Positions 4,987 through 57,941 of a stretch of DNA of 64,000 nt are shown in pieces. This DNA comes from Dysidea avara (Eukaryota; Porifera; Demospongiae; Dictyoceratida; Dysideidae): contig NC_089273.1 in the NCBI RefSeq assembly GCF_963678975.1, positions 33,542,973-33,606,972 of the forward strand, given 5' to 3'. The notes below the pieces were generated by a model. It did not search any database. It had not been told where the DNA came from and saw only the letters and a list, made by a program, of their open reading frames with translations. Position 1 is the first letter of the stretch, and each line of letters starts with the position of its first letter. The translations under genes were made by a program, and so were the position numbers.

Positions 4987-5054
4987 GGGACTATTGTACC
5001 TCCTGGAGTGCTCACCTGTAGGTCTCTTTGTTTCATTGATAACAATTTTAATAT

Positions 5055-20665: not shown

Positions 20666-21091
20666 ATGGCGAAACGGGTGTGGTCGACTGCTCGATGGAT
20701 TGCTAGTTACCGTAACGGTGGATATACTACTGCAGACACATTTTCAACATCCTTATTTGCAAAAAGATCTGAAAGCACAGAGTCACTCGTTATAATAAAC
20801 AATCTGCAGCAAGCAAGTGAGCTAGACGGTTCCAGCACTGTGCAATGTGATGGTCCTGGATCCTTGCCTGGATCCAACTTGAAGGTCGACTTGAAAAATA
20901 CATGCGCCAATAAAAGGCTGTCTGTTTGGTTCAAAAACTTCGCCTTAGCTTCACTATGCGTAGTTGTTGCTGTCGCATTTTGTATACCTGTCATCGTTTA
21001 CCTTACTGGTGATGATCACAGCTCAGGAAAACTACGAGCTGCAATCAACGATTACAATTTTAGTAACTGCTCAACAGACACCATGATGCAG
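20666..21091 (+). CDS. Receptor A exon 1: cytosolic N-terminus and signal anchor
   Basis: 142 codons end in ATG ATG CAG before the donor GTATGTG, phase 0. The ATG is the first in the frame. The hydrophobic segment FALASLCVVVAVAFCIPVIV lies about 90 residues in, too late for an ordinary cleavable signal peptide. Confidence 0.85.
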
Positions 21092-24000
21092 GTATGTGTA
21101 TAGCAGGGAACATTGCATGGACTACTAGCTGGACAGATGTATTTTAGGGTTTTACACATTATGGTTGGGTTTATTGAATTTTGCTTGCTTCTAACTGTAG
21201 CTATGGCAGACAGAATGCACCTATCAATGTCAATCCCCTCCCCATATATAGGGTCTCCATACACCTACTGAGAATTTGACATCTACGCCTTGCCCCACCC
21301 TGGGGCTTTTGACAGCAGCAGTTTGCTGAACCAAAAATTATTATGCTATGTAAATAAATTCCCTATAGAACCCCTCTTTTGAGGTGGGGATTTAACAAGC
21401 TTCTTAGATCCAGTACTGGGGAATTGGGACATTGAAAACAGTGCAAATTGAAAACTGAAACTGAAACCGAAAAACTAAACTTGGTCAAAACTTCATATTA
21501 ACAGGTACCTCTTAACAAAGGCCACCTCTGTAGTAAGACCACCGTATAATAAGGCTGCCTCTAATGAAACCACCTCATTATAGTAGTTATGTGGTTCAAC
21601 AAAAAGGCTGTAAGGTGTACTCATAATGTAATAAAGTATCAATCAATAAGACAGTACTTAAAAGTTAAAATGACAGGTGCAGGGTTGTACAAAAGGATAC
21701 ACCATCTTACCTTACCAAGACCTAAAGTCCATGGTCATGTCACAATGAAAAAGGGGTAGTTGCATGCATAATTTACTCTGCTGATACTGGATTTGATAAT
21801 GGATTTCTCATGAATTGTGCATGATTTAAGAGTTGCATAGTTAAATTAATGATCTTGGACTTTGTGTCTTGGTAATAGTTAGACACTTGTGATAGATGTC
21901 TTTGAGGATTTAAAAACCTGAGGTGATGTCAATAATATTATTACTTGCGCCTCAGTAATTACTGATGTCACCTCAGGTTTTTAAATCTTCGAACATGCTT
22001 ATTACGAGTGCCTAACAATTATTAAGACACAAAGTCCAAGATCATTAATGTTGATTTTGTAACTATGCAACTCCTAAATCATGCACAATTCATGAGAAAT
22101 CCATTATCAAATCCAGTATCAGTGGAATAAATTATGCATACAATTGCTCCATTTTCATTTGTGATTGACTTTAGGTCTTGGCATGCACAGTAAGATCATA
22201 GTATATCCTTTTGTACAACCCTGCATGCAGCTGTCATTTTAACTTTTAAGTACTGTTTGATTGATTGATACTTTATTACATTATGAATACACCTTAGCCG
22301 GACCTACTTGACATAACTACTATAATGAGGTGGTCTTATTTTTAGAGGCAGTCTTATTATACAGGTGGTCTTATTATAGATGTGGTCTTTGTTAAGAGGT
22401 ACCTGTGAATATAAAGTTTTGACCAATTTTAGTTTTTCAGTTTCAATTTTCACTATTTCCAATCTCCCTGGGGAATTTGACACTATAGACTTTGTCAAAT
22501 CCCCTGTATTCGCCACCACATTCCCCAACCCTACTCAGGGGTGGGCATGACAATGCTACATGCATTTCTAATACATTCAGTCTCAAATATAGTGTATTAA
22601 AAGAAATTTAACGAAGGCTGTGGTAGCTTCTTTAAATAAGGGAAAAACAACTGAAATATCTACGTAGATAAGCGTCGCCTATTGTTTTGCATCATAACAG
22701 AAAATGGAATTTCCTGCCTATGTGCATGCCAAAATTTGTGTGATCGGGATGACAAACAGGACAGGAAATCAATATGGAGTGGACTAATGGCTTTGATCCC
22801 TCATCACTGAAATTAGTATGAACACTGCTTACCTACACAACATAATTCAGTCTATGCATTACACAAAACAAACATATTAAGATTATCCCCATATCTCTAT
22901 AGATCTGCACTAGCAGTACAATGTAAGTTGAATTTCAAGGGACTATATAGCATTGTACAACTTGTTTTGATGCATAATTCTTCAAGTTATTTTTGCATAT
23001 TTTGCACAGGATGTCAACACTTCTACCACCTTACCCTTGTATGATGATAACTGTTCAAGTTACAATGGACTATGCTTGAAATTTTTGGATGAAAATGCTA
23101 TCTCATTGTCTACACGTACATTGAAAGGAATATCTGACAACGACGTTGCTAATTTTATTGAGCTTTTAGATCAATACTCTGGTAAAAGTGTTGTCAGTGA
23201 ACAATGTGCTGAAGTTGTGTTACCATTTCTGTGCCAATACATACATCCCCCATGTGATGGTAATGGTAGTGTCAACTTTATAAGCCAGGAACAGTGTAGT
23301 AATATCCGTGATGTGGTGTGTGCTGATGAGTGGAGGCTGGTTATGGTGTCAGCATCATCATTACTTTTACCAGTCTGTGAACATTTCAGTCATGTTGACA
23401 ATAATACTCTGACCATTGACGATAACGCTACACAAATAACAATGCAACCGTTACAATGTCACTATCAGTTTAAAAACTACTGTGGCTTGTGCCGACCTCT
23501 GTGTGGAGAGTTTTCATCACATAGTGCTAATAAGAAATTACAAGAAAAAATTACAATGATAATTGCTGCTATGTTGGCACTTTCTGGTGGAATTCTATTA
23601 TTTATTGTATCTATCATAAGAAGGAAGTCAATGTAAGTAGTCTTATACTTTCTGGACAAGACAAGGTGTCATTGGTGAATTTATACTGATGTCATGGTGT
23701 GGGGCTAATACCGTAAACTCAAAGGGTATAATCCCGACATTACCTTTCCTTTTTTTAATGCTCTTTCATTATCTGCTTTGCTTAAATAATTTTCTCATAA
23801 TGTGCAAACAAAGTTTTCTGTGTCTTTTAGAGCCCCTCATGATCAGATTGAATGCCATTCACATTACTAAGGCTACAAATAGCATAGAAACTATAATATA
23901 TGCAATGGAGTCTCTAAGATCATAAATATTTCCACAACATCAATAAGTGTGTATGTGTATTAAATTTTCTCCAAAGCCTGATTTTTGGTCTGCCTGCCTG

Positions 24001-27000: not shown

Positions 27001-30000
27001 GAGGAGTGTGTCATTCCCAGCACACTCACTGCTTGAAGTATCTTAGTTTACTACAGTAGTATATCCCCAGTACATGGAACAGTTAATTGTTTGTTATTTT
27101 AGTAGTTTTTCAGTAAACCCGCATTTACTGATGTTTTACTGAGAGTTTAAAACTTAGTAAAATAATTATGTTCCATATACTTAAGTCTACTGACACTTTA
27201 CTATCAGGATATCTACAGTAAGGCATCTTAACAAATTAGTAAACTAAGAACCTTCAAGCAGTGACTTCACTATGTGTCAGGTACAAAGAAAACACAATTT
27301 TCATGCATGTATATAGTTTCACGGTTCCTTCTTTTTCACATTTATCCATGTTAACAGATTGTGTCATTGTATTAAATATTTTTCTTTTTTTTCAGGTTGA
27401 GCTTTCCACAAATTCAAATAGTTTATCTAGCACTCTGTGCTTTTATAATTGGTAAGCTACGTATGCATATTCATATGTTACAAACTGAATGTATTGCACA
27501 CTGTTATAGTGAACTGCAGAATTTACGTCACATTAAATAATGCTGAACCTCTATGTACTCCGTCTCCATCCGATATACCCTACCAAAAATATTATGCACA
27601 ACATAGTATGATAGATGTATTTTGTTTGTTTTTAGCTTGTTTGATTCTTATTACATTTCTTGGTGGACAGGAGATATTCTTTTGCACAGATGAATATTTA
27701 GATGTGGCAGTTAAGCATCCATCAGTGTTTTGCCAAATCTCAGGTAATTTGAATATTGATCAAGATTAATTGTTGTGAGTTGCATGGCCAAAAAACTAAA
27801 ATGTGCATGCCTAATAAATAATCGAAACCACTGCTGTGAGTTATTTACATGTCTTGTAATGTTTTTGCAATCTCCACCGCAATTCATGTTTTCTTTACCA
27901 TTTTTAACTCCTTTTGCAGCTCATGGGAAGGTAGTAACCTGTTATTATAAATGTGCAATTTTCGTATCTAAAATAGGCAACCCATCTAATGTGACGTGAG
28001 CCAGTGCTGATTCTGTCACACACACCCAATGGCTTTTTTCATCCCTGAATTTAGATTAAAGGCCATACAATGTTTCACTCTATTTCACATCACTATTAAT
28101 GAATTACTACACTAAACTCTGTATTGTAAAAAAATAACAGTGCAAGTAGTAACATAAATTTAACTCTCCATTATCATTGGCATTACCAGAAAACTGTTTT
28201 TAAATTATAAAGCACAGAATTGTCTATAGTGCTTATTATTACGACATCTATTTTAAAAGGTTGGACTAGGAAAAAAACTGTGCTTACCTGTGAACTTTTG
28301 AAGTTAATTAATACTCTTTCATTTGGTTAATTTAGGCCTTTAATGGTATAGGAGCATTGATAAATGCGGTTAAGAGATGTCATGAAGTGAAAATGTGTTT
28401 ATACAAGGAAAGGGAAAGGAGGCCACTGTCACACTCAACTCCACCAGGAGGCAAATTCCAGTTACTCACTACAATTTTATTAGTATGTGCTGGGTTGACA
28501 CAAAATTAAAAATGGTCCTGTGCATTGATACAGTATACAGTATTATTTTAAAGGTGGCAATGACAGTGAATCATCTGGTAGAGTATGTATCCATTTCCCC
28601 TATCGAGTAGTTAATGCATCCTTCCACTCTTTCTAGTACAAGACACAACATTATAAATTATGACTCCGCTAACACTTTGGATCTTTATAGTGTTCCCCCT
28701 ACGCAAGCTATAGGAAAAAGTGGTCTCAGCGAGACCATGGACACAAGATTATCAATCATGTGTTAAGTGAATGCAAATTAACTTCAACCAAGAAAAAGAG
28801 CATGATGCACAAAGATGCACGTACAATTACAAAATAGACAAAAGATCTTACTTATTGCACACACAAGGCTGTACATTGATTACTAATTAATAATTAGGTT
28901 ATAGCCCAGCTAGGTTGTGCTTGAATTGGTCAATCTCTGTTCATGTTCTGAGATAAGGAATTCAAATTTTGGGAAAAAACTTCTTTTATGTGGTCCTCTA
29001 CATAAATCCAGAAACATACACAAAAGGTATACAGCCTTGCCTGGCAGGCCATTATGTGGAGTAGGCACATGTACAATTTCCAGCTGGTGATGCAGTTTTT
29101 CCATGGTGGGGCAATCAAGAGTACAGTTTCCAGGATTTTTCCAAGGTGGTTTCCAGATCTGGTCCTAAGTGCTAAACTGTATTTCTCACATCTGCTTTCT
29201 ATAGCACTCAAGATGCGTTGCACCTTCAGACTCAGTGATCTACCAAAGCTCCATTTCCACGTGGACAGAGGTGCCAATTTACAGCCATCTCTCAGAAGTA
29301 ACTGGGAATAACATTTGATAATAAACTGGATTGGTCAACTCATGTACGTAGCTACTACTTGTAAGAAGACGTCTTTTTTATTTATTTTGGATTAACTCCT
29401 ACAGGAAAACTTTACCAACTGAAGTCATCAAGATGTGTTATCTTGCCTGATTTATGGTTTACCGGTTTGGAGTCCTTTGTTGTCTCAGTAATACATTCAT
29501 CACTTACAACGTTTACATAATTGGGGTGCGTGTATCACTGCTTCATTGCAGAAATTTGACCATGTGTCAGAACATCGTACCAACTTTATTGACTGACAGT
29601 TTCATCTTTAATTAAGTACCACTGCTTGTGTACTTTACAAAAAATCTATATTGGTGATGATACTTTGCTGGATCCTTCAGTAGTATTTGGAACTAATCAT
29701 AAGCATCATACTAGATCCTCACAAAGATTTATTCAGCCAGCCTTCTGTAGATTGTCCTTTACTAAGAAACTGTTTAGACATTTCTGCCGCACTCTGGTGG
29801 AATGGTCTGCCTGATGAAGTTGCTCTGTCCTCCACTTTTCCTTCAGTGTATAATTTTATGTTGTGTAGTGATTGTGTAATTTTTTTGTGTAGTGTATTTG
29901 TGTTGTGTACAAATAGTTCCTGTATCTGTGTGCTGGTGTTGTACTTGTATTGCTTCTGCACTTGTGTGTTTGTTAGAGATGTACATTAGTTCTTTGTACG

Positions 30001-32435
30001 CTCTTGTACGGAAGAACAGCTATGCTGAATATTTGAGCTAAAATAAAAATCAAACAATTAATCAAGCATGGAGGAGCTAGTGAACCTCTTATGTATGTCA
30101 GTCTGTCAGGACTAGTGAGGAGTCAGTTGCAATATTATAACTACAGGTGCTAAGAATCTTGTCTCTGTCATGAGATGCTTACTGTCACCAATATCATCAA
30201 GGCCATAGCAGCGCAGCATATAAACACACAAACTGTTGTTGCTGCCATTAAACATTAATTTGTTGATTGTCTCTTAAAACTGTCAAGCATTGCATGCCAA
30301 AATAATCTCAACAATGAGTGAAAGCATTACCATGTGGCTCTGTGTGAGCTGGTTAAGATTTGGAATATTTGCTTACCTGCATGCACAGCAAATAGTATTA
30401 TAATTTGGCCATATTGGTTTATGCTATGTGCGTAATTACATATGGGTCATTTCACGTAATCACTAGGTCATCTTTGCTGAAACTTGGGGTATTTGTAGTA
30501 GCTACTTGAGGTGTTCATCACCCATACAATTTTTTTGGTCACTGCATTATGACCACAAACATTTTGAATATTTCATGAAAAATTGGTCCATCTCATGTTA
30601 GTAAATTAACTGTAATTTTGTACTGTGTTAATGTTAATTTCAATGATTGTGGTATTTGTGATATATGGGGCTAAAATGGTATGGGTGATATGCACTGACT
30701 ACAAACACACCAAGTCTAAGAGAGATTTTTTGTTGATTTGAGACATGGAATGACTATACAGATTACAGAGAGGAGTAAATTTGTATGTCGGATGATAATC
30801 TTCCCTGCATATATAAAGTACATTTAATTGTAATAACAAAATTCATTGTACTAGTAGTAGTAGAGATAGGAATGGTTAAGCAAAAACCTTATCAAAATTG
30901 TTGACAAAACTGCAATTCCAAAAGTTTGTAAACTGTTGGTGCAAGTGTGATAGGAAAAAATCATTCATGCACTGATCTGCCTCATTTTAGGTGAGTGATT
31001 TAGCATGAATATATGAAATTATTTGTCTGTGATACCAAATCCTAGACACAGCCAAGAACAGAGTTGTAAAAAAATCATCTGAAGTTGCCATAAGGATAAA
31101 AAAATAATTAAACCAATGCTGTTCATGTGTGGCATCCACCTTTTACTTTCTTGACTGTGTGGCTTACTGTAAGTTTTGGGTGAAAAATACATCAATTTTT
31201 TCAGAAAATTTGTTGTTGCTATTGTGTAATTAACCTGGCCATGCTGAATTCTTCATACTCAGGTTTTTCTAACCACTGGTTGTTTATGCTTGCTGGCATA
31301 CTCTGGTTTCAACATACATGTCATCTATTTATGAAAATTATGTTTCCAATGTGGTCAAAGAGACATGACGACAAGGAAAAGTCAGTTGTACTTCATGTGT
31401 TAGAGCTTTCTGGAGCAATCTTTATTAGTATTATTGCACCAGTGACATATTCAGTGCAATCAGAATACAGACTATCTCGTTTTCCTCCAATATTCTGTGC
31501 TCCCTCAAGAATATTCTTATTTTATACACTGTGTTTGCCACTTTGCATGATATGTGGAGGAGGATCAGTTCTACTCATTATTGTTCTTTGGACATTAGTC
31601 AAGGTTAGTATATACTATTTATATTCCTTTGTGTAATTTCCTTTGCATTTTAATATAAGATTTTCTTGTGAATTGACCAGTTTTAGAACTAAATCTGTAA
31701 GCCTTCTTACAAGAACCTATAGGGATTGCATTCACAGTGTAATTATGGCGATGGTGAATGATTAATATATATGTAATATTATTATTGTATTTCATCAATA
31801 GATCAAGAGGTAAAGGGCATGTGGCTAGCATATATTTGTGAAAGATTATGTGTGCATATATAGCTGGAGTTTTGAGAATGATGCCAGGACTGCACACAAA
31901 TAAATATGTTATTATTATTACTTATTCTGGAGCTGGTACTACTTCATTGGTACAATATAATTATTAATTGTTGACACAAATGAATGTATTTATGTAAAAT
32001 ACATTTTATCATGTTTAGAGGAAACAACTATTCAAGAAAGAATCATCCAAATGTTTCTGCAACATACAGGTTGGTATACCAGAAGTGAAAGTCTTCCTGA
32101 TACTATCTTATTTTGTTGTTTTTGAAATAATGGCTCTAGTCACTTTGGGTATCAATGTCAGAGATTCAGAAACCATTACAAAAACATTACTGGAGTACAT
32201 TTTCTGTCAACTAAGCGGGCTTAACAACGGTAATTCATGTACTGCATTGAGAGATAAAATAGAGTCTCATTTACAAATCGAGCTTAACAATGTAACGTAT
32301 CTTTTAATGGGACTTCTGCCATGGGTAATCCTGTTACTTGCTATCCAGTTTACAGACATCAAAAACGCACTTCGAAAGGTGGGGTCTGCTTGCCAACAAT
32401 TTTGTAAAGACAAGAGAGCCATCAATAGAAAGTAA
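20666..32435 (+). CDS. Frizzled-class receptor, copy A (spliced, about 656 aa)
   Basis: Proposed exons: 20,666-21,091; 23,010-23,632; 27,396-27,451; 27,636-27,743; 31,263-31,603; 32,019-32,435 (stop). All have GT/AG borders and the phases join in frame. Residues 1-91 are hydrophilic and probably cytosolic. Residues 92-114 form a hydrophobic helix preceded by KRLSVWFK, so N-in orientation is likely. Residues 135-292 form a Frizzled-type cysteine-rich domain: FLCQYIHPPC has the spacing of Fz FLCxxYxPxC, and LLLPVCEHF parallels LxCExFP. Seven membrane segments follow: IIAAMLALSGG, IQIVYLALCAF, HWLFMLAGILWF, AIFISIIAPV, IFLFYTLCLPL, VFLILSYFVVF and LLPWVILLLAI. LSFPQIQIVYLA matches the Fz TM2 start RYPERPIIFLS. 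The expected role is a Wnt-type or other CRD-ligand receptor at the plasma membrane. The Dishevelled-binding KTxxxW after TM7 is absent. Family call firm, subfamily unknown. Confidence 0.82.
21092..23009 (+). other. Intron 1 of receptor A
   Basis: Donor GTATGTG, acceptor TTTTGCACAG. It is mostly occupied by a large inverted repeat (about 21,260-22,510). Confidence 0.8.
21260..22510. repeat. About 1.2 kb foldback repeat in intron 1
   Basis: Left-arm landmarks (AACAGGTACCTCTTAAC, GTACTTAAAAGTTAAAATGAC, GATCTTGGACTTTGTGTCTT, AAAACCTGAGGTGATGTCA) recur in inverted order on the right, converging near 21,955. Arms are roughly 500 bp. The same structure is in copy B, so it predates the duplication. 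Confidence 0.85.
23010..23632 (+). CDS. Receptor A exon 2: Frizzled cysteine-rich domain and TM1
   Basis: The exon starts after CTGCACAG-type acceptor TTGCACAG and ends in TCA AT|GTAAGT, phase 2. It encodes Cys 157, 164, 208, 217, 224, 238, 246 and 265 of the domain, then a CGLCRPLC linker that corresponds to the Fz CGAPCEP linker, and the first membrane helix ending in IIRRKS. Confidence 0.87.
26403..26743. mobile_element. 341-bp hAT-type MITE, TAGAGGTGCACC termini
   Basis: TAGAGGTGCACC and GGTGCACCTCTA bound the element, with the perfect 8-bp duplication ATATTAAT at 26,395-26,402 and 26,744-26,751. The interior repeats TATCGG, as in the 15,989 element, and the termini are similar, so they are probably of related families. 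Confidence 0.92.
27027..27263. mobile_element. 237-bp MITE, CACTGCTTGAAG termini
   Basis: CACTGCTTGAAGTATCTTAG is mirrored by CTAAGAACCTTCAAGCAGTG. ACT flanks both ends, and copy B retains the empty site CACACTACACTATG. A 3-bp duplication suggests a CACTA-like origin. Confidence 0.8.
27396..27451 (+). CDS. Receptor A exon 3: start of TM2
   Basis: A 56-nt exon between TTTTTTCAG and GTAAGC, entered in phase 2 and left in phase 1. It encodes LSFPQIQIVYLALCAFII, the counterpart of the Fz RYPERPIIFLS segment. Confidence 0.82.
27636..27743 (+). CDS. Receptor A exon 4: end of TM2 and first extracellular loop
   Basis: A 108-nt exon, phase 1 to 1, acceptor TTTGTTTTTAG, donor CAG|GTAATT. It encodes ILITFLGGQEIFFC and ends at SVFCQIS. 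The two cysteines 17 residues apart parallel the Fz loop cysteines before TM3. Confidence 0.8.
28352..28482 (+). CDS. Possible extra or alternative exon of receptor A (uncertain)
   Basis: The 131-nt open segment joins exon 4 in frame (phase 1, acceptor GGTATAG) and ends at a strong donor (TTA|GTATGT). If used, exon 5 would need the acceptor TTTTTTCAG at 31,204 rather than 31,262; the total stays in frame (about 719 aa). The copy B equivalent (53,634-53,764) differs by only one base. Against it: the insert (ALINAVKRCHEVKMC...) adds charged sequence and would add an eighth core helix, which breaks the Frizzled topology. Confidence 0.35.
29300..30062 (+). mobile_element. Decayed LINE 3' end in an intron of receptor A
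   Basis: Broken frames read LGITFDNKLDWSTHV, LPTEVIKMCYLA, RSSQRFIQPAFCRLSFTKKL and ALWWNGLPDEVALSS in that order. These are typical C-terminal motifs of CR1/L2-type reverse transcriptases. Frameshifts and stops separate them. A related remnant is at the same place in copy B, so the insertion is older than the duplication. Confidence 0.75.
31263..31603 (+). CDS. Receptor A exon 5: TM3 to TM5
   Basis: A 341-nt exon, phase 1 to 0, acceptor CTTCATACTCAG, donor AAG|GTTAGT. It encodes HWLFMLAGILWF (TM3), a basic loop WSKRHDDKEK, then VLELSGAIFISIIAPV (TM4) and the PSRIFLFYTLCLPLCMICGG helix (TM5). An upstream in-frame acceptor at 31,204 would extend it by 58 nt. Confidence 0.8.
32019..32435 (+). 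CDS. Receptor A exon 6: TM6, TM7 and short C-tail
   Basis: The acceptor is ATGTTTAG. It encodes a third intracellular loop (RKQLFKKESSKCF), VFLILSYFVVFEIMALVTLG (TM6), an extracellular loop with NNGNSC, and LLPWVILLLAIQF (TM7). The tail is about 28 residues (DIKNALRKVGSACQQF...). The stop TAA is at 32,433-32,435. Confidence 0.85.
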   Translation, partial: RKQLFKKESSKCFCNIQVGIPEVKVFLILSYFVVFEIMALVTLGINVRDSETITKTLLEYIFCQLSGLNNGNSCTALRDKIESHLQIELNNVTYLLMGLLPWVILLLAIQFTDIKNALRKVGSACQQFCKDKRAINRK

Positions 32436-41948: not shown

Positions 41949-42341
41949 ATGGCGACACGAGTGTGGTCGACTGCTCGATGGATTGCTAGTTACCGTAACG
42001 GTGATGATACTACTGCAGACACATTTTCAACATCCTTATTTGCAAAAAGATCTGAAAACACAGACTCGCAGCAAGCAAGTGAGCTGGACGGTTCCAGCAC
42101 TGTGCAATGTGATGGTCCTGGATCGAATTTGAAGGTCGACTTGAAAAATACATGCGCCAATAAAAGGCTGTCTGTTTGGTTCAAAAACTTCGCCTTAGCT
42201 TCACTGTGCGTAGTTGCTGCTGTCGCATTTTGTATACCTGTCATCCTTTACCTTACTGGTGATGATCACAGCTCAGGAAAACTGCGAGCTGTAATCGATG
42301 ATTACAATTTTAGTAATTGCTCAACAGACACCATGATGCAG
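41949..42341 (+). CDS. Receptor B exon 1
   Basis: 131 codons ending ATG ATG CAG|GTATGTG, phase 0. The cytosolic part and the anchor FALASLCVVAAVAFCIPVIL are conserved. Two gaps relative to copy A remove SLVIINNL-type and SLPG-type stretches. Confidence 0.85.
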
Positions 42342-45300
42342 GTATGTGTATAGCAGGGAACATTGGACTACTAGCTGGACAGATGTATTTTAGGGTTTTA
42401 CACATTATGGTTGGGTTTATTGAATTTTGCTTGCTTCTAACTGTAGCTATGGCAAACAGAATGCCGGCACCTATCAATGTCAATCCCCTCCCCCTATATA
42501 GGGTCTCCATACACCTACTGAGAATTTGACATCTACGTCTTGCCCCACCCTGGGGCTTTTGACAGCAGCAGTTTGCTGAACCAAAAATTATTATGCTATG
42601 TAAATTAAATTCCCTATAGAAACCCCTCTTTTGAGGTGGGGATTTAACAAGCTTCTTATACCCAGTACTGGGGAATTGGGACATTGGAAACAGTGGAAAT
42701 TGAAAACTGAAACTGAAAAACTGAATAAAATTGGTCAAAACTTCATATTAACAGGTACCTCTTAACAAAGACCACCTCTGTAATAAGACCACTGTATAAT
42801 AAGGCCGCCTCTAATGAGACCATCTCATTATAGTAGTTATGTGGTTCAACAAAAAGGCTATAAGGTGTACTCATAATGTAATAAAGTATCAATCAATCAG
42901 ACAGTACTTAAAAGTTAAAATGACAGCTGCAGGGTTGTACAAAAGGATACACCATCTTACCTTACCAAGACCTAAAGTCCATGGTCATGTCACAATGAAA
43001 AAGGGGTAGTTGCGTGCATAATTTACTCTGCTGATACTGGATTTGATAATGGATTTCTCATGAATTGTGCATGATTTAAGAGTTGCATAGTTAAATTAAT
43101 GATCTTGGACTTTGTGTCTTGGTAATAGTTAGACACTTGTGATAGATGTCTTCGAGGATTTAAAAACCTGAGGTGATGTCAATAATATTATTACTTGCGC
43201 CTCAGTAATTGTGACCGGATTTGCGAAAAGGTACCTTTTTCACACACAAAATTTGACCCATTTTTTGAACTTTAAAGCTTCATAACTTTTTAATCATGAC
43301 ATGTAATTGCTTGAAAGTTTCAATGAATGTAGCTGCAGTATCTAGCTACATTTTGATGCTGAGAGCAAGTTAAACAGTATAAGGAGTCAAGTGTTACATC
43401 ATTTTGTTTGCTGGTATGTCAAATGTGTGGAAAAGGTACCTTTTCGCAAATCCGGTCACAATTACTGATGTCACCTCAGGTTTTTAAATCTTCGAAGATG
43501 CTTATTACGAGTGCCTAACAATTATCAAGACACAAAGTCCAAGATCATTAATGTTGATTTTGTAACTATGCAACTCCTAAATCATGTACAATTCATGAGA
43601 AATCCATTATCACATCCAGTATCAGCGGAGTAAATTATGCATACAATTGCTCCATTTTCATTTGTGATTGACTTTAGGTCTTGGCATGCACAGTAAGATA
43701 GTATATCCTTTTGTACAACCCTGTATGCAGCTGTCATTTTAACTTTTAAGTACTGTTTGATTGATTGATACTTTATTACATTATGAATACACCTTAGCCG
43801 GACCTACTTGACATAACTACTATAATGAGGTGGTCTTATTTTTAGAGGCAGTCTTATTATACAGGTGGTCTTATTATAGATGTGGTCTTTGTTAAGAGGT
43901 ACCTGTTAATATAAAGTTTTGAACAATTTTAGTTTTTCAGTTTCAATTTCCACTGTTTCCAATCTCCCTGGGGAATTTGACACTATAGACTTTGTCAAAT
44001 CCCCTGTATTCCCCACCATATTCCCCAACCCTACTCAGGGGTGGGCATGACAATGCTACCTGCATTTTTAATACATTCAGTCTCAAATATAGTATATTAA
44101 AAGAAATTTAACAAAGCTGTGGTAGCTTCTTTAAATAAGGGAAAAACAACTGAAATATCTACGTAGATACGCGTCGCCTATTGTTTTGCATCATAATAGA
44201 AAATGGAATTTCCTGCCTATGTGCATGCCAAAATTTGTGTGATCAGGATGACAAACAGGACAGGAAATCAATATGGAGTGGACTAATGGCTTTGATCCCT
44301 CATCACTGAAATTAGTATGAACACTAGGGCTGAGCAATAGTATCGATAGTGCGATATATCGCGATAGTAAATCACTATCGTTATCGCGATAGTAGGGATA
44401 TCACTATCGTGATAGTTATGATAAGCTCAGATCTGCATTAAAATGGTATTAACAACCCTTCTATACTGTTTTACAGTTGGTATTACCAGCTTTCTTACAA
44501 AGGAGTGGCATATAAAAACTATACCAAAGTCCATATTCACCGGCCGCCCACGCAGTAAATTAACAAATGTCCTGTGCATGCAAAATAACTTTCTATATGA
44601 CTGCAAATCATAGCTATACAACTAAGACTTTGTTAAGAACAAAGTGTTTCATAAACTATCGGGATAGTATTCACTATCGCGATATTTAATGAGTAACCAT
44701 CATGATAGTAAAATTTTTACTATCGCTCAGCACTAATGAACACTGCTTACCTACACAACATAATTCAGTCTACAGATTATGCAAAACAAACATATTAAGA
44801 TTATCTCCATATCTCTATAGATCTGCACTAGCAGTACAATGTAAGTTGAATTTCAAGGGACTATAGCAACTTGTTTAGATGTATAATTCTTTAAGTTATT
44901 TTTGCATATCTTGCACAGGATGTCAACACTTCTACCACCTTACCCTTGTATGATGATACCTGTTCAAGTTACAATGGACTATGTTTGAAAATTTTGGATG
45001 AAAATGTTATCTCATTGTCTACATGTACATTGAAAGGAATATCTGACAACGACGTTGCTAATTTTATTGAGCTTTTAAATCGATACTCTGGTACAAGTGT
45101 TGTCAGTGAACAATGTGCTGAAGTTGTGTTACCATTTCTGTGCCAATATATACACCCCCCATGTGATGGTAATGGTAGTGTCAACTTTATAAGCCAGGAA
45201 CAGTGTAGTAATATCCGTGATGTGGTGTGTACTTTTGAGTGGAGGCTGGTTATGGTGTCAGCATCATCATTACTTTTACCAGTCTGTGAACATTTCAGTC

Positions 45301-48300
45301 ATGTTGACAAGAATACTCTGACCATTGACGATAACGCTACACAATTAACAATGCAATCATTACAATGTCACCATCAGTTTAAAAACTACTGTGGCTTGTG
45401 CCGACCACTGTGTGGAGGGTTTTCATCACATAGTGCTAATAATAACTTGCAAGAAAAAATTACAACGATAATTGCTGCTGTGTTGGCACTTTCTGGTGGA
45501 ATTCTATTATTTATTGTATCTATCATAAGAAGGAAGTCAATGTAAGTAGTCTTGAATGCATACAGTGCTCTGCATACATGTCTATCCTACAAAGCCATCT
45601 GGCTTCAACTAACTGAAATGTACTATAATTTTCATAATATGCCAAGCCACATAATTATTATGTTATGTTTATGATCTTTCAAGCTCCCCAAATTAAACCG
45701 GTCACCATGCAGGCTTCTTTAATGATGTGTTACTACATTTGGCCATTTTAGTGAAAAGGTTCAAAAATTTACACAATATTTTAGTGCCATTTACTACCCA
45801 GGATAGAAGCTTGCAGTGGGAGATTACTAACTAATTAGTAACCTGTGGTCTAGCTCATGATTGTTCACTATATAATTCACAAAACAAATCAACAATGTAA
45901 AGAATGAAGTAGCCTGACTGTTATACTTTCTGGACAAGACAAGGTGTCATTGGTGATGATATACTGATGTCATGGTGTGGGGCTGATACCGTAAACTCAA
46001 AAGGTAATCCCGACATTACCTTCCTTTTTCTCATGCTCTTTTGTTATCTGCTTTGCTTAAATAATTTTCTCATAATGTGCAGACAAAGTTTTCTGTGTCT
46101 TTTAGAGCCCCTCATGATCAGATTGAATGCCATTCACATTACCAAGGCTACAAATAGCGTAGAAACTATAATATATGCAATGGAGTCTCTAAGATCATAA
46201 ATATTTCCACAACATCAATAAGTGTGTATGCGTATTAAATTTTCTCCAAAGCCTGATTTTTGGTCTGCCTGCCTGCTTGCCTGACCACAGTCAAAAGGCT
46301 AGAGCCCAAACAAAGCCGTACATGTTGCTCACGACAGGTGGCAAAGCATGTGCCTTTTCTGGTTCCAACAAACGTCTGCCTCCTGCACTTTCCCATCCTT
46401 TTATCTGGTCATCTTCTTCATGCAATAAACCATACAGAGGTGTTAATTTTTAGTATCAATACTTAGAGTAGCATACTTAGATGCCACAAACTATTTGAAT
46501 CACTTGAGAGGAAGTATACCTGTGGCTTGTACTCATTTTGTTGTGTTAGTAGTTGTAGTGAATTATTCTCATTTTAGAGAAATCAGACTATACCTGTAGC
46601 TACATACACTAGTTACTTATTTTTTGCTAGGATGAAACAACCGCATTGCAATCACACCCTTAAGCAATCATAACATGTTGCCACATTCTTAAACAATCAG
46701 ATGCAATAAGGTGCAATGTTTGCTCCAGTAAACAAGATGTAGCAATGAACAGGCTCCTGTTGCTCACTCGAGATGAGCAGCGAGACCAAGATACTCACAG
46801 TCACATAACTATAAAAAATTTTAACTAGTGCAATTAACATTTTAAGAAAACATAGTAGAATTCCAGGGATAAAGTATGTATGTGACCAAATTTGGGAAAA
46901 CCATATATCTACATACATTAATAGATGGTAAGAGATGCGGTTTTAAACATTTCAATCCAGTATAGTTTTGGAAGGTCAAAAGCTACGAGTTTCAAATTCA
47001 CTGTGAATGCAGCCAACCAAAGTGTTTATCTCACTTTAATCCACTAGCTATTGATATAACCATGATGTTTGAGTACTTTTTTCATGACGGTATCTGTAAC
47101 ACAAATACGTCATCATGGGTGATAGTGAGGGTGGGCAATTGGTATATGAACAGAAAATGGCCGAGTATAGTTCATATAATGTTACCAGCCTTAATATTGG
47201 GCTCTCAAGACCACCTGTGCCACTGAAAATAAAAGTATTTTACATGGAAAACATCTGGGAAACTGTCCAAGGTTGCGTGCGTGTTCATGTCTCTAGCCTT
47301 GTGTTTCAGCTGGTCAGTGGCATTAAAAGGTGCCAGAACATTTTTGCTGGCACCTTTTACAAGAGCACAAGAACTTTCGCCACTACCACCGCTCTCCAAT
47401 CACGTACACTTCCTGTCAATATACCCACGGTGTGCGCACCGGCTTCTTGGGCCGCACGACACACTATCGTGTGTCTTGATACATCCAAGTACATGTACTA
47501 ACAAGAGTACCTAATAGCAGGGTAATGCATATATAGCAAAGAGTGTGCCATTCCCAGCACACTACACTATGTGTCAGGTACAAAGAAAAAACAAATTTTC
47601 ATGTACTGTATGTAGAGTCAACTATCAATTATCGGGCACTATGGTTTTCGAACAGCTGCCACTCACTTCATGGAAATCCAACAGCTTAGGTTATTATACT
47701 ACAAATTAGCCTACACTAAGCAGCAATTATCCTCCAATAATCAGGTAAGTAAGATTAATAGCGTGAGAGCTGCAGCTAATAGTATGCAAGGTCCGATAAA
47801 TTCCAGATTCATACAAAACCATCCATTTACGAACATTGCGTTTTACTACCAGAAAATAATGCCCACATTTATGTATAATATACTTGTGTTCATTAGCTAC
47901 CAATGACCAAAAAATGGTTTCGATATCTTTAGTAGTCTATATTTGAACGCCATTAATTTTTTTATTTAGCCATGCCCACCAGTAGATTTTATGCTTCTGC
48001 AAGAAATACTCCAGTGTTGAAGTACAGAAATCGGTAAATAAACAACTTGCATGTATGTAACTGTACTGTGAAGTTGATATCAAGAATATTTTCGTTATTG
48101 CACTGCATTTTCAGCTCCTACATGAAGGAGATGCAAAAAAGTGAAAAAATGAAGTAAGGAGAAGCAGCCTCCTGACCATCCCTATATGTTAGTCTAGGTG
48201 GCCCACCACAAATAGAATCATAAAATTTAAAGGGCGTTGCTTTATCTACCTATATGGGTGCATAAAGTAGCAAAATTTCGACAAAGCGTGCATCCTTTTG

Positions 48301-51300
48301 CACCCATATAGGGTATAAAAAGGAAAGTCCCTCATTTTTTATGATGATATTTGTAGTGGGCCACCTAGATTAACATATAGGGATGGTCAGGAGGTTACTT
48401 CTCCTTACTTCATTTTTTCACTTTTTTGCATCTCCTTCATGTAGGAGCTGAAAATGCAGTGCAACAACGAAAATATCCTTGATATCAACTTCACAGTACA
48501 GTTACATACATGCAAGGTGTTTAATTACAGGTTTCTGTACTTTAGCACTGGTGCAATTCATGCAGAAGCATAAAATCTACCATTGAGCATGACTAAATAA
48601 AAGATTAATGGCGTTCGAAAATACCGCCAAATATCGTAAGGCTCTTACTCCCTCTATGCTACAGGTATCGAAACCATTTTTTGGTCATTGGTAACTAATG
48701 AACACAGGTATATTATACATAAATTTGAAAAAATTGGGCATTGTTTTCTGGTAGTAAAACGCAATGTTCCTAAATGGATGGTTTTGTTCGAACCTGGAAT
48801 TTATCGGACCTTGCATAATATTAGCTGCAGCTCTCACGCTATTAATCTTACTTACCTGATTATTGGAGGATAATTGCTGCTTAGTGTAGGCTACGTTGTG
48901 GTATAATAACCTAGGCTGTTGGATTTCTATGAAGTGAGTTGGCAGCTGTTCGAACACCATAGTGCCCGTTAGTTGATAATTGACTCTATATAGTTTCACA
49001 GTTCCTTCTTTTTCACATTTATCCATGTTAACAGATTATGTCATTGTATTGAATACTTTTCTTTCAGGTTGAGCTTTCCGCAAATTCAAATAGTTTATAT
49101 AGCACTCTGTGGTTTTATAGTTGGTAAGCTACGTATGCATATACATATGTTACAAACTGAATGTAATACATACTTTTATAATGAACTAGAGTTTACGTCA
49201 CATTACACATTGCTGAACCTCTATGTACTCTGTCTCCATCCGATATACCCTACCAAAAATATTATGCACAACATAGTATGATAGATGTATTTTGTTTGTT
49301 TTTAGCTTGTGTGGTTCTTATTCCATTTCTTGGTGGACAGGAGATATTCTTTTGCACAGATGAATATTTAGATGTGGCAGTTAAGTATCCATCAGTGTTT
49401 TGCCAAATCTCAGGTAATTTGAATATTGATCAAGATTAATTGTTGTGAGTTGCATGGTCAAAAAACTAAAATGTGCATGCCTAATAAACAATCGAAACCA
49501 CTACTGTGAGTTATTTACATGTCTTGTAATGTTTTTGCAATCTCCACCGCAATTCATGTTTTCTTTACCATTTTTAACTCCTTTTGCAACTCATGGGCAG
49601 GTAGTAACCTGTTATTATAAATGTGCAATTTTCGTATCTAAAATAGACAACCCATCTAATGTGACGTGAGCCAGTGCTGATTCTGTCACACACACCCAGT
49701 AGCTTTTTCATCCCTGAATTTAGATTAAAGGCCATACAATGTTTTACTCTATTTCATATCACTATTAATGAATTACTACACTAAACTCTGTATTGTAATA
49801 AATTAACAGTGCAAGTAGTAACATAAATCTAGCTCTCCATTATCATTGGCATTACCAGAAAACTGTTTTTAAATTATAAAGCACAGGATCAAGACACACG
49901 GTAGTGTGTCGTGCGGCCCAAGAAGCCGGCGCGTAACACCCGTGAGTACCGTATAGCGGAAAATATTGGCGGGAGAAATTTTTGGCGAATTGATCATTGG
50001 CAGAAATTGGCGAATAATATTTTGGCGAATGTATGACATTACTTTGCCTACGCAATTTTAATCTGATTGCGTAGGCGACGAAGCTTACTACAGTTCAATG
50101 CCTCTCATTCGAATCGACGCGCTCTTATGCAAATAGCTAGCTCGAGAGCTAGCTGTAATTAAAACAGCATGCACTAGCTCGCTAAGTCACTGGGGCGCGC
50201 GTGGCAAGCGAGGCGAGGGCACTGAGCCATAGATAATATAGATAATATATTAAGGACTATATTATCTATATTATCTATGACTGAGCTGAATCGCTTGAGC
50301 TGAATTGCCCATCTGCCTGAGCTATTAGTAGTCTAAAACCATATACTGTATTCAATGGGATAGGAAGACTAACCACTCACCGCTGTAACAATATTCACCC
50401 ACTAATGAACAGCGTCTACCTCGGCGTCTACTACACTTTCAGTGTTTAGAAAATGGCGAGTAAAATTTTGGCGAATCAATGCACGATCGCCAAATTCGCC
50501 AAAATTTTCTCCCGCCAAAATTTTCCGCTATACGGTATATTGACAGGAAGAAAGAAAACGCAATTTTCGCACTTCCATAGCTCTGTGCTGCCTTGATGAA
50601 ATCGCTTCAAGCGTTCCCGAGATATGCGACTTCAAAAATTGGCTTAGTTTCTTCGTTTTTTTCTTCTTTTTCTTCCTCTTTTCGCACACTTACAAAAACT
50701 GCTATAAAACGCGAACGCCATATCCGATCGCCTTGAAATTTTGCACACAGAAGGGAGGTATAAAGGCGCATCTCTGTACCAACTTTGGCTGGAATACGAT
50801 AAACAGGCAAAGAGTTATGAGCGATTAATCACGAAAAATAACACCAATATGTTGTCACGCCTACAGGGTAAACCGCGTATGGGAAGAAGCTGAAAATCGG
50901 TGGATGAATAGGTTAACTACTGAACCTCAAACCTTTTGTGGTTTGAAAGAAATCGAGCTAAAAACCAGGAAGATACAACGAAAAAACCAACAGTGTGTAA
51001 CAATTACGCAATCGAGATTAGCTAATAAAAAACGACTGCTTGCCACACCTACCAGGTAAACCGCTTGGGGTAATGCTTTGAAAATCGCTGTACAGATGGA
51101 GTTATCATCTTATAAAGGCTCTTCAATGGTGTAGAAGAATCAGACTTAAAGCCACGGAGTTATAACACGAAATCCAACTTGGTGTAGCAAGTGCGAGATC
51201 GAGATTCTCTAATAGAGCATTCATCCTATTAATAGAGCAGTCATCCTAATAGAGCAGTCACCCGAAGAGAATTCAAGAGATCAGTTAGAAACAAGTAACC

Positions 51301-54300: not shown

Positions 54301-57300
54301 CATAAGTCCAGTAACATACACAAAAGGTATACAGCCTTGCCTGGCAGGCCATTATTTGGAGTAGCACATGTACAGTTTCCAGCTGGTGATGCAGTTTTTC
54401 CATGGTGGGGTAATCAAGAGTACAGTTTCCAGGATTTTTCAAAGGTGGTTTCCAGATCTGGTCCTAAGTGCTAAACTGTATTTCTCACATCTGCTTTCTA
54501 TAGCACTCAAGATGCATTGCACCTTCAGACTCAGTGATCTACCAAAACTCCATTTCCACATGGACAGAGGTGCCAATTTACAGCCATCTCTCAGAAGTAA
54601 CTGGGAATAACATTTGATAATAAACTGGATTGGTCAACTCATGTACGTAGCTACTATTTGTAAGAAGACGTCTTTTTATTTAATTTGGATTAACTACCAC
54701 AGGAAAACTTTACCAACTGAAGTCATCAAGATGTGTTATCTTGCCTGATTTATGGTTTACTGGTTTGGAGTCCTTTGCTATTTCAGTAAAACATTCATCA
54801 CTTACAACGTTTACATAATTTGGGTGTGTGTATCACTGCTTTATTGTGGAAATTTGACCATGTGTCAGAACATCGTGCCAACTTTATTGACTGACAGTTT
54901 CATCTTTAATTAAGTACCACTGCTTGTGTCCTTTACAAAAAATTTATGTTGGTGATGGCACCTTGCTGGATCCTTCAGTAGCATTTGGAACTAATTATAA
55001 GCACCATACTAGATCCTCACAAAGATTTATTCAGCCAGCCTTCTGTAGATTGTCCTTTACTAAGAAACTGTTTAGAAATTCTGCCGCACTCTGGTGGAAT
55101 GATCTCTGCCTGATTTAGTTGCTCTGTCCTCCACTTTTTCTTCAGTGTATAATTTTATGTTGTGTAATGATTGTGTAATCTTTTTGTGTAGTGTATTTGT
55201 GTTGTGTACAAATAGTTCCTGTATCTGTGTGCTTGTGTTGTACTTATTGCTTCTGCACTTGAGTGCTTATTGAAGTTGTATGTTTGTTCTTTGTACACTC
55301 TTGTATGTAAGAATGGCTATGCTGAATATTTGAGCTAAAATAAAAATCACTCAATCAATCAATCAATCAAGAATGGAGGAGCTAGTGAAGGTCTTACGTA
55401 TGCTAGTCTGTCTGGACTAGTGAGGAGTCAGTTGCAATATTATAACTAATAACTACAGGTACTAAGAATCTTGTCTCTGTCATGAGATGCTTACTGTCAC
55501 CAATATCATCAAAGCCATATCAGCGCAGCATATAAACACACAAACTGTTGTTGCTGCCATTAAACATTAAGTTGTTGATTGTCTCTTAAAATTGTCAAGT
55601 GTTGCAAATTCCTAAATAATCTCAATAATGAGTGAAAGCGTTACCATGTGGCTCTGTGTGAGCTGGTCAAGATTTGCAATATTTACTTTCCTGCATGCAC
55701 AGCAAATAATATCAGAGACCAACCTAATTTAGTCATATTGGTTTATACTATGTGTGCAATTACATATGGATCATTTCATATGAAATCACTAGGTCATCTT
55801 TGCTGAAACTTGGGGTATTTGTAGTAACTACCTGTGGTGTTCATCACCCATACAAATTTTTGAAACATTTTGAATATTTCATGAAAAATTGGTCCATCTC
55901 AAGTTAGTAAATTAATTGTAATTTGTACTGTGTTAATGTTAATTTCACTGATTGTGGTATGTGTGATATATGGGGCTTAAATGGTATGGGTGATGTGCAC
56001 TGACTACAAACACACCAAGTCTAAGAGAGATTCTTTGTTGATTTAAGACATGGAATGACTATACAGATTACAGAGAGGAGTAAATTTGTATGTCGGATGA
56101 TAATCTTCCCTGCGTATATAAAGTACATTTAATTGTAATAACAAAATTCATTGTACTAGTAGTAGTAGAGATAGGAATGGTTAAGGAAAAACCTTATTAT
56201 CAAAATTGTTGACAAACTGCAATTCCAAAAGTTTGTAAACTGTTGGTGCAAGTGTGATAGGAAAAAATCGTTCATGCACTGACTTGCCTTGTTTTAGGTG
56301 AGTGATTTAGAATGAATATATGAAAATTATTTGTCTGTGATACCAAATCCTAGACACAGCCAAGAACAGAGTTGTAAAAAAAATCATCTGAAGTTTCCAT
56401 AAGGATAAAAAAAATTAAACTAATGCTGTTCATGTGTGTTTATTTGAGGCATCCACACAGTAAAAACAAACTAGTGAACGTCACTACTAATGGCTGCCAC
56501 AATACTCACTATTTTTGTGTAGTGACGTTCACTACTAAGTTTGTAGTGAACGTCACTACATCGACCACCAAGTAGTGACGTTCACTGCAAAAAGTAGTGA
56601 GTATTGTGGCAGAGCAATTCACTACTAATTTTTTACAGTGCACCTTTTACTTTCTTGACTGTGTGGCTTACTGTAAGTTTTGGGTGAAAAGTACATCAAT
56701 TTTTTCAGCAAATTTGTTGTTGCTATTGTGTTATTAATCTGGCCATGCTGAATTCTTCACACTCAGGTTTTTCTTACCACTGGTTGTTGATGCTTATTGG
56801 CATACTCTGGTTTCAACATTCATGTCATCTATTTATGAAAATTATGTTTCCAATATGGTCAAAGAAACATGACGACAAGGAAAAGTCAGTTGTACTTCAT
56901 GTGTTAGAGCTTTCTGGAGCAATCTTTATTAGTATTATTGCACCAGTGACATATTCAGTGCAATCAGAATACATAGTGTCTCGTTTTCCTCCAATATTCT
57001 GTGCTCCCTCAAGAATATTCTTATTTTACACACTGTGTTTGCCACTTTGCATGATATGTGGAGGTGGATCGGTTCTACTCATTATTGTTCTTTGGACATT
57101 AGTCAAGGTTAGTATAATATACTATTTATATTCCTTTGTGTAATTTCCTTTGCATTTTAATATAAGATTTTCTTGTGAATTGACTAGTTTTAGAACTATA
57201 ATCTGTAAGCCTTCTTACAAGAACCTATAGGGATTGCATTCACAGTGTAATATGGCGATGGTGAATGATTAATATATATGTAATATTATTATTGTATTTC

Positions 57301-57941
57301 ATCAATAGATCAAGAGGTAAAGGGCATGTAGCTAGCATATATTTGTAATAGATTATGTGTGCATATATAGCTGGAGTTTTGAGAATGATGCCAGGACTGC
57401 ACACAAATAGATACGTTATTATTATTACTTATTCTGGGGCTGGTACTACTACAGTGGTACACTATAATTATTAATTGTTGACATAAATGCATGTATTTAT
57501 GTAAATACATTTTATCATGTTCAGAGGAAACAACTATTCAAGAAAGAATCATCAAAATATTTCTGCAACATACAGGTTGGCATACCAGAAGTGAAGGTCT
57601 TCCTGATACTATCTTATATTGTTGGTTTTGGAATAATAGCTCTAATTACTTTGGGTATCAATGTCAGAGATTCAGAAATCATCACAGAAACACTACTGAA
57701 GTACATTCTTTGTCAACTACCTGGTCTTAACAATGGTAATTCATGTACTGCAATGAGAGATAAAATAGAGTCTCATTTACAAATCGAGCTTAACAGTGTA
57801 ACGAATCTTTTACTGGGGCTTCTACCATGGGTAATCCTGTTACTTGCTGTCCAGTTTACAGACATCAAAAATGCACTTCGAAAGGTGGGGTCTGCTTGCC
57901 AACAATTTTGTAAAGACAAGAGAGCCGTCAATAGAAAGTAA
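41949..57941 (+). CDS. Frizzled-class receptor, copy B (spliced, about 645 aa)
   Basis: Proposed exons: 41,949-42,341; 44,919-45,541; 49,068-49,123; 49,306-49,413; 56,767-57,107; 57,525-57,941 (stop). Lengths of exons 2-6 equal those of copy A exactly (623, 56, 108, 341, 417), and every splice site keeps GT/AG. Exon 1 is 33 nt shorter by in-frame losses in the Ser/Gln-rich cytosolic part. The domain order is the same: cytosolic N-terminus, signal anchor, Frizzled cysteine-rich domain, seven helices and a short tail without KTxxxW. The cysteine-rich exon differs at about 18 residues, including a new cysteine (STCTLKG for STRTLKG). Introns 2 and 4 are enlarged by a 1.37 kb foldback and a 3.6 kb insertion. 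Both frames are open, so it is probably a functional paralogue. Confidence 0.82.
42530..43990. repeat. Intron 1 foldback repeat in copy B, with an insertion at its centre
   Basis: This is the same inverted structure as in copy A intron 1. It is split at its centre by the element 43,211-43,459. Confidence 0.85.
43211..43459. mobile_element. 249-bp element, GTGACCGGATTTGCG termini
   Basis: GTGACCGGATTTGCGAAAAG and CTTTTCGCAAATCCGGTCAC are exact inverted repeats of about 30 bp including GGTACC. The flanks share AATT; copy A has the unbroken CAGTAATTACTG. It sits within a few bases of the centre of the older foldback. Confidence 0.9.
44325..44735. mobile_element. 411-bp hAT-type MITE, TAGGGCTGAGCAATAG termini
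   Basis: TAGGGCTGAGCAATAG and TACTATCGCTCAGCACTA are flanked by the perfect duplication ATGAACAC (44,317-44,324; 44,736-44,743). The interior repeats CTATCGCGATAGT palindromes near both ends. Confidence 0.92.
44919..45541 (+). CDS. Receptor B exon 2: cysteine-rich domain and TM1
   Basis: 623 nt, same borders as in copy A (CTTGCACAG / AT|GTAAGT). FLCQYIHPPC and LLLPVCEHF are unchanged. Replacements cluster before the third domain cysteine and at ADE/TFE after VVC. Confidence 0.87.
47365..47480 (-). repeat. Short copy of a GTGTGTCGTGCGGCCC repeat family
   Basis: Inverse complement of the block at 49,887-49,948 and 50,536-50,560 (CAAGACACAC, GTCGTGCGGCCCAAGAAGCC, TATATTGACAGGAAG). It replaces about 1.9 kb that copy A has at 25,080-26,945. 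It shows the uninterrupted form of the site into which the 49,949 MITE inserted. Confidence 0.75.
47615..48986. mobile_element. 1.37 kb foldback element in intron 2 of receptor B
   Basis: The arms of some 500-650 bp are complementary from GAGTCAACTATCAATTATCG to its partner ending GATAATTGACTC. Copy A has neither arm, and TA flanks both ends. Each arm contains the same open frame (QQLSSNNQVSKINSVRAAAN), read outward-in on opposite strands. The centre (about 48,170-48,400) holds a second nested inverted pair (GGGATGGTCAGGAGG). Confidence 0.88.
49068..49123 (+). CDS. Receptor B exon 3
   Basis: 56 nt, acceptor TTTCTTTCAG, donor GTAAGC; encodes LSFPQIQIVYIALCGFIV. Confidence 0.82.
49306..49413 (+). 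CDS. Receptor B exon 4
   Basis: 108 nt; encodes CVVLIPFLGGQEIFFC through SVFCQIS; acceptor GTTTTTAG, donor CAG|GTAATT. Confidence 0.8.
49949..50535. mobile_element. 587-bp MITE, CCGTATAGCGGAAAA termini, TA duplication
   Basis: CCGTATAGCGGAAAAT and TTTTCCGCTATACGG form long inverted repeats with GGCGGGAGAAA and TTTGGCGAA blocks. TA lies on each side, and the empty form of the site exists in this window at about 47,415-47,430 (complement strand). It is probably Tc1/mariner-derived. Confidence 0.88.
50228..50279. repeat. 52-bp perfect palindrome inside the MITE
   Basis: CATAGATAATATAGATAATA is mirrored by TATTATCTATATTATCTATG around a short loop. Confidence 0.92.
51285..52985. repeat. Satellite array of about 55 units of 30-31 bp with higher-order order
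   Basis: Three monomer types share GAGAGWTCAGCTA. Type a continues CAAAGAAACCACCATGTA, type b CAAACAAATCACCCTGTA, and type c GAAGAAGTTACCTTGTA. They follow each other in recurring orders (c-a-b and c-a-c blocks), so a higher-order repeat of roughly 90-150 bp is superimposed on the 30-bp period. No long open frame runs through it. Confidence 0.9.
53172..53504. repeat. Foldback repeat at the right end of the 3.6 kb insertion
   Basis: AATCTAATCCAAAACAGCCA pairs with TGGCTGTTTTGGATTAGATT. The arms are about 155 bp and include GGTAGGTTAATGGTAAAAAT. The loop is only about 15-20 bp, so the extruded arms would be very stable. Confidence 0.9.
53634..53764 (+). CDS. Possible extra exon of receptor B (uncertain)
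   Basis: Counterpart of 28,352-28,482, with the same acceptor and GTATGT donor. It differs by a single base (Lys to Arg). It would require the acceptor at 56,708 for the next exon. See the copy A entry for arguments against. Confidence 0.35.
54600..55375 (+). mobile_element. Decayed LINE 3' end in receptor B intron
   Basis: Orthologous to 29,300-30,062 in copy A, with the same broken CR1/L2-like motifs. The 3' tail here is an expanded (TCAA)n, a usual CR1/L2-like end. Confidence 0.75.
56456..56640. mobile_element. 185-bp MITE, CACAGTAAAAA termini
   Basis: CACAGTAAAAA and TTTTTTACAGTG bound the block. The interior has repeated GTAGTGACGTTCACTAC palindromic units. It is absent from copy A. 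It lies about 125 bp before the exon 5 acceptor region. The terminal CACWGT resembles the 10,107 MITE. Confidence 0.8.
56767..57107 (+). CDS. Receptor B exon 5: TM3 to TM5
   Basis: 341 nt, acceptor CTTCACACTCAG, donor AAG|GTTAGT. Membrane segments are as in copy A, with replacements in TM3 (HWLLMLIGILWF). Confidence 0.8.
57525..57941 (+). CDS. Receptor B exon 6: TM6, TM7 and C-tail
   Basis: 417 nt including the stop; acceptor CATGTTCAG. The last 28 residues are almost identical to copy A (one Ile to Val change). Confidence 0.85.
   Translation, partial: RKQLFKKESSKYFCNIQVGIPEVKVFLILSYIVGFGIIALITLGINVRDSEIITETLLKYILCQLPGLNNGNSCTAMRDKIESHLQIELNSVTNLLLGLLPWVILLLAVQFTDIKNALRKVGSACQQFCKDKRAVNRK

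Follow-up and report, generated by a model that had tools for sequence, protein, structure and literature searches.

Two tandem genes in the genome of the sponge Dysidea avara are best explained as members of a large class F family whose first exon would provide an additional transmembrane helix, TM0, instead of a cleavable signal peptide. The best-supported reading of this helix, and one that we regard as probable, is that of an uncleaved signal anchor, which would result in a receptor of eight helices with its N-terminus in the cytosol. Both genes lie in a stretch of 64,000 nucleotides that was analysed as a whole (hereafter, the window; C2:33542973-33606972), and relatives were searched throughout the 550.8 Mb genome, in 108 contigs, to which it belongs.

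Gene models of the two tandem copies

Both genes are encoded on the forward strand in six exons, whose borders were picked by inspection of the sequence. In copy 1, exon 1 (20666..21091) starts with an ATG at 20666, ends at a GT donor at 21092 and comprises 142 codons, which correspond to a polar head of 91 residues including KRLSVWFKN, 24 uncharged residues (FALASLCVVVAVAFCIPVIVYLTG, 20939..21010, residues 92-115 of exon 1) and 27 residues up to the splice site. These three parts are the predicted cytosolic head (1-91), signal-anchor helix (92-115) and exoplasmic stub with one Cys (116-142). Exon 2 (23010..23632) carries a cysteine-rich domain (CRD) with 8 Cys, a linker with 4 Cys and TM1, followed by exon 3 (27396..27451) with the start of TM2, exon 4 (27636..27743) with the end of TM2 and extracellular loop 1, exon 5 (31263..31603) with TM3 to TM5, and exon 6 (32019..32435) with TM6, TM7, a short tail lacking KTxxxW and the stop codon. 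Copy 2 is built from exon 1 (41949..42341; head of 80 residues, anchor helix of 24 and stub of 27), exon 2 (44919..45541; CRD, linker and TM1), exons 3 to 5 (49068..49123, 49306..49413 and 56767..57107) and exon 6 (57525..57941), which ends in a stop codon. The spliced proteins have 656 and 645 residues for copies 1 and 2, respectively.

All ten introns of the two copies have GT-AG ends and matching phases, and the junction between exons 1 and 2 is of phase 0. The joining of these two exons, as the original prediction had it, is thus backed by in-phase canonical splice sites in both copies and by a genome-wide pairing of anchor and CRD exons (see below), and is very probably real. The layout described in that prediction, 80-91 polar residues followed by KRLSVWFK, was also right in its order, except that KRLSVWFK had been counted twice, being already included in the heads of 91 and 80 residues. 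The only ATG codons among the 142 of exon 1 in copy 1 are those of residues 1, 140 and 141, and their arrangement is the same in copy 2, which leaves no ATG-initiated start just before the helix; a translation start at that point, raised in the original prediction as a way in which its reading might fail, therefore looks unlikely for either copy.

Ser and Thr together make up 23% and 25% of the two heads, and the exon 1 sequences differ by two gaps that keep the frame, one of 7 codons and one of 4. The intron blocks common to both copies (ungapped, selected for likeness) are 93-98% identical, and the pair is, as judged from these alignments, a recent tandem duplication. Since the introns are so similar too, the likeness of one copy to the other says little by itself. 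The comparison of exon 1 between copies gave a pN/pS of 0.29 (head, 0.030 versus 0.102, from no more than some 5.5 changes of either kind), and this value, together with the matching order of parts in diverged relatives across the genome, indicates that the arrangement of exon 1 exceeds what chance would produce.

Diverse repetitive elements were also observed in the window. A Helitron transposon (1456-5085, reverse strand) contains a long open frame with a Helitron-like N domain and a PIF1 helicase. A fold-back element of about 1 kb with nested inverted repeats occupies positions 21458-22449, in intron 1 of copy 1, and parts of it are also present in copy 2. The long intron of copy 2 harbours a degenerate tandem array (51276-52981), which can be read, for example, as about 27 copies of a 61-nt unit.

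Class F affinity and the genome-wide family

The assignment of these genes to the Frizzled class, already made in the original prediction, agrees with the match of the spliced copy 1 to PF01534 (Frizzled), which reached 35.8 bits over a cut-off of 22.3 and spans residues 314-615 of the protein and positions 3-295 of the 322 in the profile. Their CRD scored 21.7-23 bits against PF01392 (Frizzled CRD), under the cut-off of 32.1, and KTxxxW, the Dishevelled-binding motif that follows TM7, was sought there and found in neither copy. Because of this combination of a PF01534 match, a CRD under its cut-off and the absence of KTxxxW, the window genes are to be filed as class F related and not as canonical Wnt-receptor Frizzleds. 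No adhesion-class seven-helix region or GPS appeared in the Pfam scan of the spliced protein, where matches with E values up to 10 comprised just Frizzled, Fz and a weak DUF2231. When the transmembrane exons were scanned singly against Pfam, no match was obtained, and a search of the whole genome with PF01534 detected four places, none of them inside the window. The silence of the isolated transmembrane exons and a CRD below its cut-off are a suggested reason why domain scans miss this family. TM3 was at one point suspected of lacking a mini-exon, as the Cys-to-Trp spacing seemed eight residues short; this idea was rejected once a later Trp restored, in our own reading, an approximately canonical spacing.

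Canonical Frizzled/Smoothened-type genes are present in the same genome, namely L001 (C12), L002 (C6) and L003 (C12), each matched within one open frame. KTxxxW occurs in L001 and L002 and not in L003, while L001 and L003, inspected by eye, open with a short hydrophobic leader of the ordinary kind. No cleavable signal peptide was recognised directly before the CRD of the window copies, where a head of 80-91 residues and a predicted helix of 24 residues are found. On the side of structure, a family profile built from 20 CRD exons matched, among solved structures (PDB), the CRDs of ROR2 (E 2e-8), MuSK (E 1.3e-4) and Smoothened (E 0.01).

The original prediction spoke of two paralogues. Both copies are real, and the genome contains about 100 related CRD loci that this first inspection had missed. 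Two CRD-exon queries run against the whole genome gave 101 merged loci at E < 0.001 (23 of the 105 rows of the first CRD search were dropped for E > 0.001), and three exon-1 protein queries gave 46 distinct places (9 + 15 + 22, at E limits of 1, 10 and 1, some of them weak when taken singly). A CRD locus on the same strand follows within 15 kb downstream of 43 of the 46 anchor-exon places, a different locus in each case, compared with a mean of 1.64 and a maximum of 7 of 46 in a shuffled control (1000 trials with random strands and with shifts of up to 1 Mb). Consequently paired are 43 of the 101 CRD loci, which is a lower bound, the other 58 having no anchor match to the three exon-1 queries. 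Among the three unpaired anchor places, C1:17210926 has its closest CRD locus 56 kb away, C13:13528733-13528879 (reverse strand) has one at 24.6 kb, and C9:7140176-7140295 (reverse strand) lies on a contig with no CRD match. The latter two may be either orphan exons, unrecognised genes or chance matches.

The sequence upstream of 12 selected CRD loci was read as well, which revealed an anchor exon in nine (on C8, C12, C15, C5, C7, C3 and three on C13), whereas it was not found in the stretches read at the loci on C6, C11 and C1. Five of these nine (L038 to L042) were recognised by eye as an ATG followed by a polar stretch, helix and stub, with profile scores either missing or under the HMMER inclusion level; a later genome search with exon 1 matched two of the five (C5 and C3). 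Eight further CRD loci with about 1.5 kb of flank gave a single anchor exon (L030), in a frame without ATG. The 101 loci of the CRD-TM1 exon are clustered, mostly on C13 (42) and C7 (34), and several CRD matches contain stop codons, suggesting that some loci are probably pseudogenes. No relatives were confirmed in prokaryote genome contigs or viral contigs. Upstream of one family member (L039, C13:11483150-11488650), an open frame resembling a retrotransposon polymerase was noticed, a label given by eye.

Topology of the first helix

The original prediction described an added hydrophobic helix and a total of eight, and the charge bias, helix length and conservation of this segment would all fit an N-in signal anchor. 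In nine of nine exon-1 sequences the uncharged stretch is 23-26 residues long, and their alignment has five invariant columns, which are the C, F, P and Y of the helix and the Cys of the stub. Across 119 pairs of 16 genes, mean identity was 47.6% for the helix, 44.2% for TM1 and 56.3% for the CRD, and the helix exceeded TM1 in 75 of the 119 pairs; this comparison, like that of charge, is centred on the anchor Pro, which is conserved there by construction and counts as independent only in the nine-sequence alignment. The pair counts exclude the comparison of copy 1 with copy 2 and the column counts exclude copy 2, four of 22 exon-1 sequences fell outside the anchor filter (none among the 16 used for pairs), and identity figures for the head were set aside, as short heads inflate them. 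In a table of 21 members that left out copy 2 and recorded charge, sequons, head length and stub Cys, net charge is higher before the helix than after it in 19 (means of +1.43 and -1.43), and sequons lean in the expected direction without reaching significance (p of 0.067 and 0.095). Of the 21 members, 18 have a Tyr at the fourth position after the Pro of the helix.

A competing explanation accepts exon 1 as genuine and takes its hydrophobic stretch for a signal peptide with a long n-region, removed by signal peptidase to leave an ordinary seven-helix receptor. The core of a signal peptide measures, as a rule of thumb, 7-15 residues, and the 23-26 uncharged residues seen here are long for it. 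A cleaved signal peptide is not usually constrained like a resident helix, and the residue-specific conservation of this segment is as high as that of TM1; moreover, heads reach 120 residues, and a common cleavage-site pattern was not noticed in an unscored inspection by eye. On the other hand, many signal peptides also carry a Pro towards the end of their hydrophobic part, several members show, by eye, small residues after the stretch, and just 7-28 residues precede it in nine of the 21, as they would in a signal peptide, which makes one possible for those nine; some of the short-head members, such as L055 and L057, resemble ordinary if long signal peptides. Weighing these points, we hold the removal of the segment to be unlikely.

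Much less probable still would be that exon 1 forms part of another transcript, or that the true first exon lies elsewhere and encodes a normal signal peptide. The three of 12 loci where no anchor exon was found upstream would agree with it, but order and strand coincide at the 43 paired loci, exons 1 and 2 join in phase in both window copies, and the open frame of exon 2 upstream of its acceptor has no in-frame ATG. A scan of intron 1 and of the 5 kb upstream of exon 1 found no candidate signal-peptide first exon with a phase-0 donor in either copy; this result is suggestive only, because the same scan recovered four of seven known first exons of short-head relatives, one of them with a different donor. 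An alternative first exon of this kind, which the original prediction had also raised, looks unlikely within that limited sensitivity. Finally, an inverted or hairpin-like first helix, either leaving the head outside or not spanning the membrane, is scarcely credible: two of the 21 members depart from the positive-inside trend, but the other 19 follow it, and a Frizzled-like CRD with its cysteines must be outside.

The head, the cysteines and known receptors

The head was proposed in the original prediction as a new signalling or sorting module, an idea that finds no echo in these data as far as a conserved module is concerned: no Pfam domain was detected, the invariant columns are confined to the helix and stub, and heads may have as few as 7 residues or as many as 120. 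Against Pfam, six long-headed exon-1 proteins gave no match above cut-off and just one below it. Counted with no chance control, SP or TP dipeptides occur in 10 of the 12 heads of at least 40 residues and are absent from copy 1, and basic kinase-like and sorting motifs are scattered among the same 12 heads, again with no such control. The head is thus probably a variable, disordered regulatory tail and not a domain. In a tree of 26 CRD exons (22 with a measured head; midpoint root, for display), long heads of 50 or more residues (13 rows) are found on both sides of the deepest branch, whereas an unresolved fork outside the 12-row clade of the window genes accounts for eight of the nine short heads. 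This tree requires three changes of head length, versus a mean of 7.2 after shuffling. An old long head with later losses is the likely scenario.

As for the cysteines, the stub contains exactly one in 21 of 21 members (exons hand-trimmed at the donor), and the linker between CRD and TM1 contains four in every one of the 20 counted; by eye, the number is three in L047, and the canonical genes have three (L001 and L003) or one (L002). With borders chosen by hand, the outside cysteines of copy 1 are distributed over the CRD (8), the loops (5), the linker (4) and the stub (1). Their total is even only when the stub Cys is counted, and a bond between stub and linker is therefore predicted. The CRD of copy 2 carries one additional Cys, which weakens this count. 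More speculatively, then, the stub Cys and the extra linker Cys would bond and clamp TM0 to the hinge.

Under the signal-anchor reading, the polar head would be made first in translation, and TM0 would act as a type II signal anchor that stays uncleaved, so that the head would face the cytosol and the CRD the exterior, in a protein of eight helices whose two ends are inside. TM0 and TM1 would hold the CRD at both ends, and a TM0 clamped to the hinge would serve as an intrinsic accessory helix that restricts the CRD. Current models of Frizzled and Smoothened activation have a CRD that swings freely; if the topology is true, the CRD of this family would be unable to do so. It is possible, and we offer it as a tentative proposal somewhat on the doubtful side, that the roughly 100 class F loci constitute a rapidly duplicating repertoire (chemosensory or immune-like), in which a disulfide-clamped TM0 would couple the CRD to a variable cytosolic tail as a Wnt-independent second Frizzled-type design.

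The window genes share with Frizzled and Smoothened the CRD, the Cys-rich linker and a seven-helix region over the Pfam cut-off, but they would have TM0 and a head in place of the signal peptide, and they lack KTxxxW. Moreover, the family CRD lacks one Cys pair of Frizzled in our own alignment, with the usual Cys numbering, and the family linker has four Cys as opposed to three in the Frizzled-type L001 and L003. Corin and MFRP are type II proteins with a cytosolic head, a signal anchor and a Frizzled-type CRD outside, and they have no seven-helix receptor region. The order of head, anchor and CRD would thus be common to them and the window genes, whereas the seven-helix region is found only in the latter. 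Both proteins are mentioned, in the accessible text of the source, among those with Frizzled-type CRDs (PMC6747125). ROR2 and MuSK, whose CRDs were the best solved-structure matches of the family profile, are in contrast receptor tyrosine kinases; the CRD of ROR2 is described, in the part of the report available, as having no lipid groove (PMC11219042), which may or may not hold for the family CRD.

The closest parallel in topology that we came across is human ADGRG7/GPR128, reported, in the available text, as the first eight-helix GPCR with both ends inside, as deduced from tags in COS-7 cells (PMC11039983). According to the same text, its long isoforms have an extra N-terminal helix, no predicted signal peptide and an N-in orientation, similar to what the window genes would have when read from their sequence, but ADGRG7 is a single gene of the adhesion class with a GPS, whereas the window genes are of the Frizzled type and belong to a family. 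A short ADGRG7 transcript variant with a signal peptide, driven by an intronic promoter, is also described there (PMC11039983), and a counterpart was not found in the window genes. If the topology is true, these would bring an eight-pass, N-in design to a second GPCR class. The portions of the open-licence literature that could be consulted yielded no Frizzled described as eight-pass or signal-anchored, and no large sponge family of the Frizzled type. In the accessible parts of two sources, a demosponge GPCR survey retained three Frizzled-type receptors out of nine candidates (PMC4302439), and a review credits some sponges and cnidarians with up to four orthologues of Frizzled (PMC9729800). 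The class F sets of early animals are thus described as small in these texts, in contrast to the about 100 CRD-exon loci detected here in one genome.
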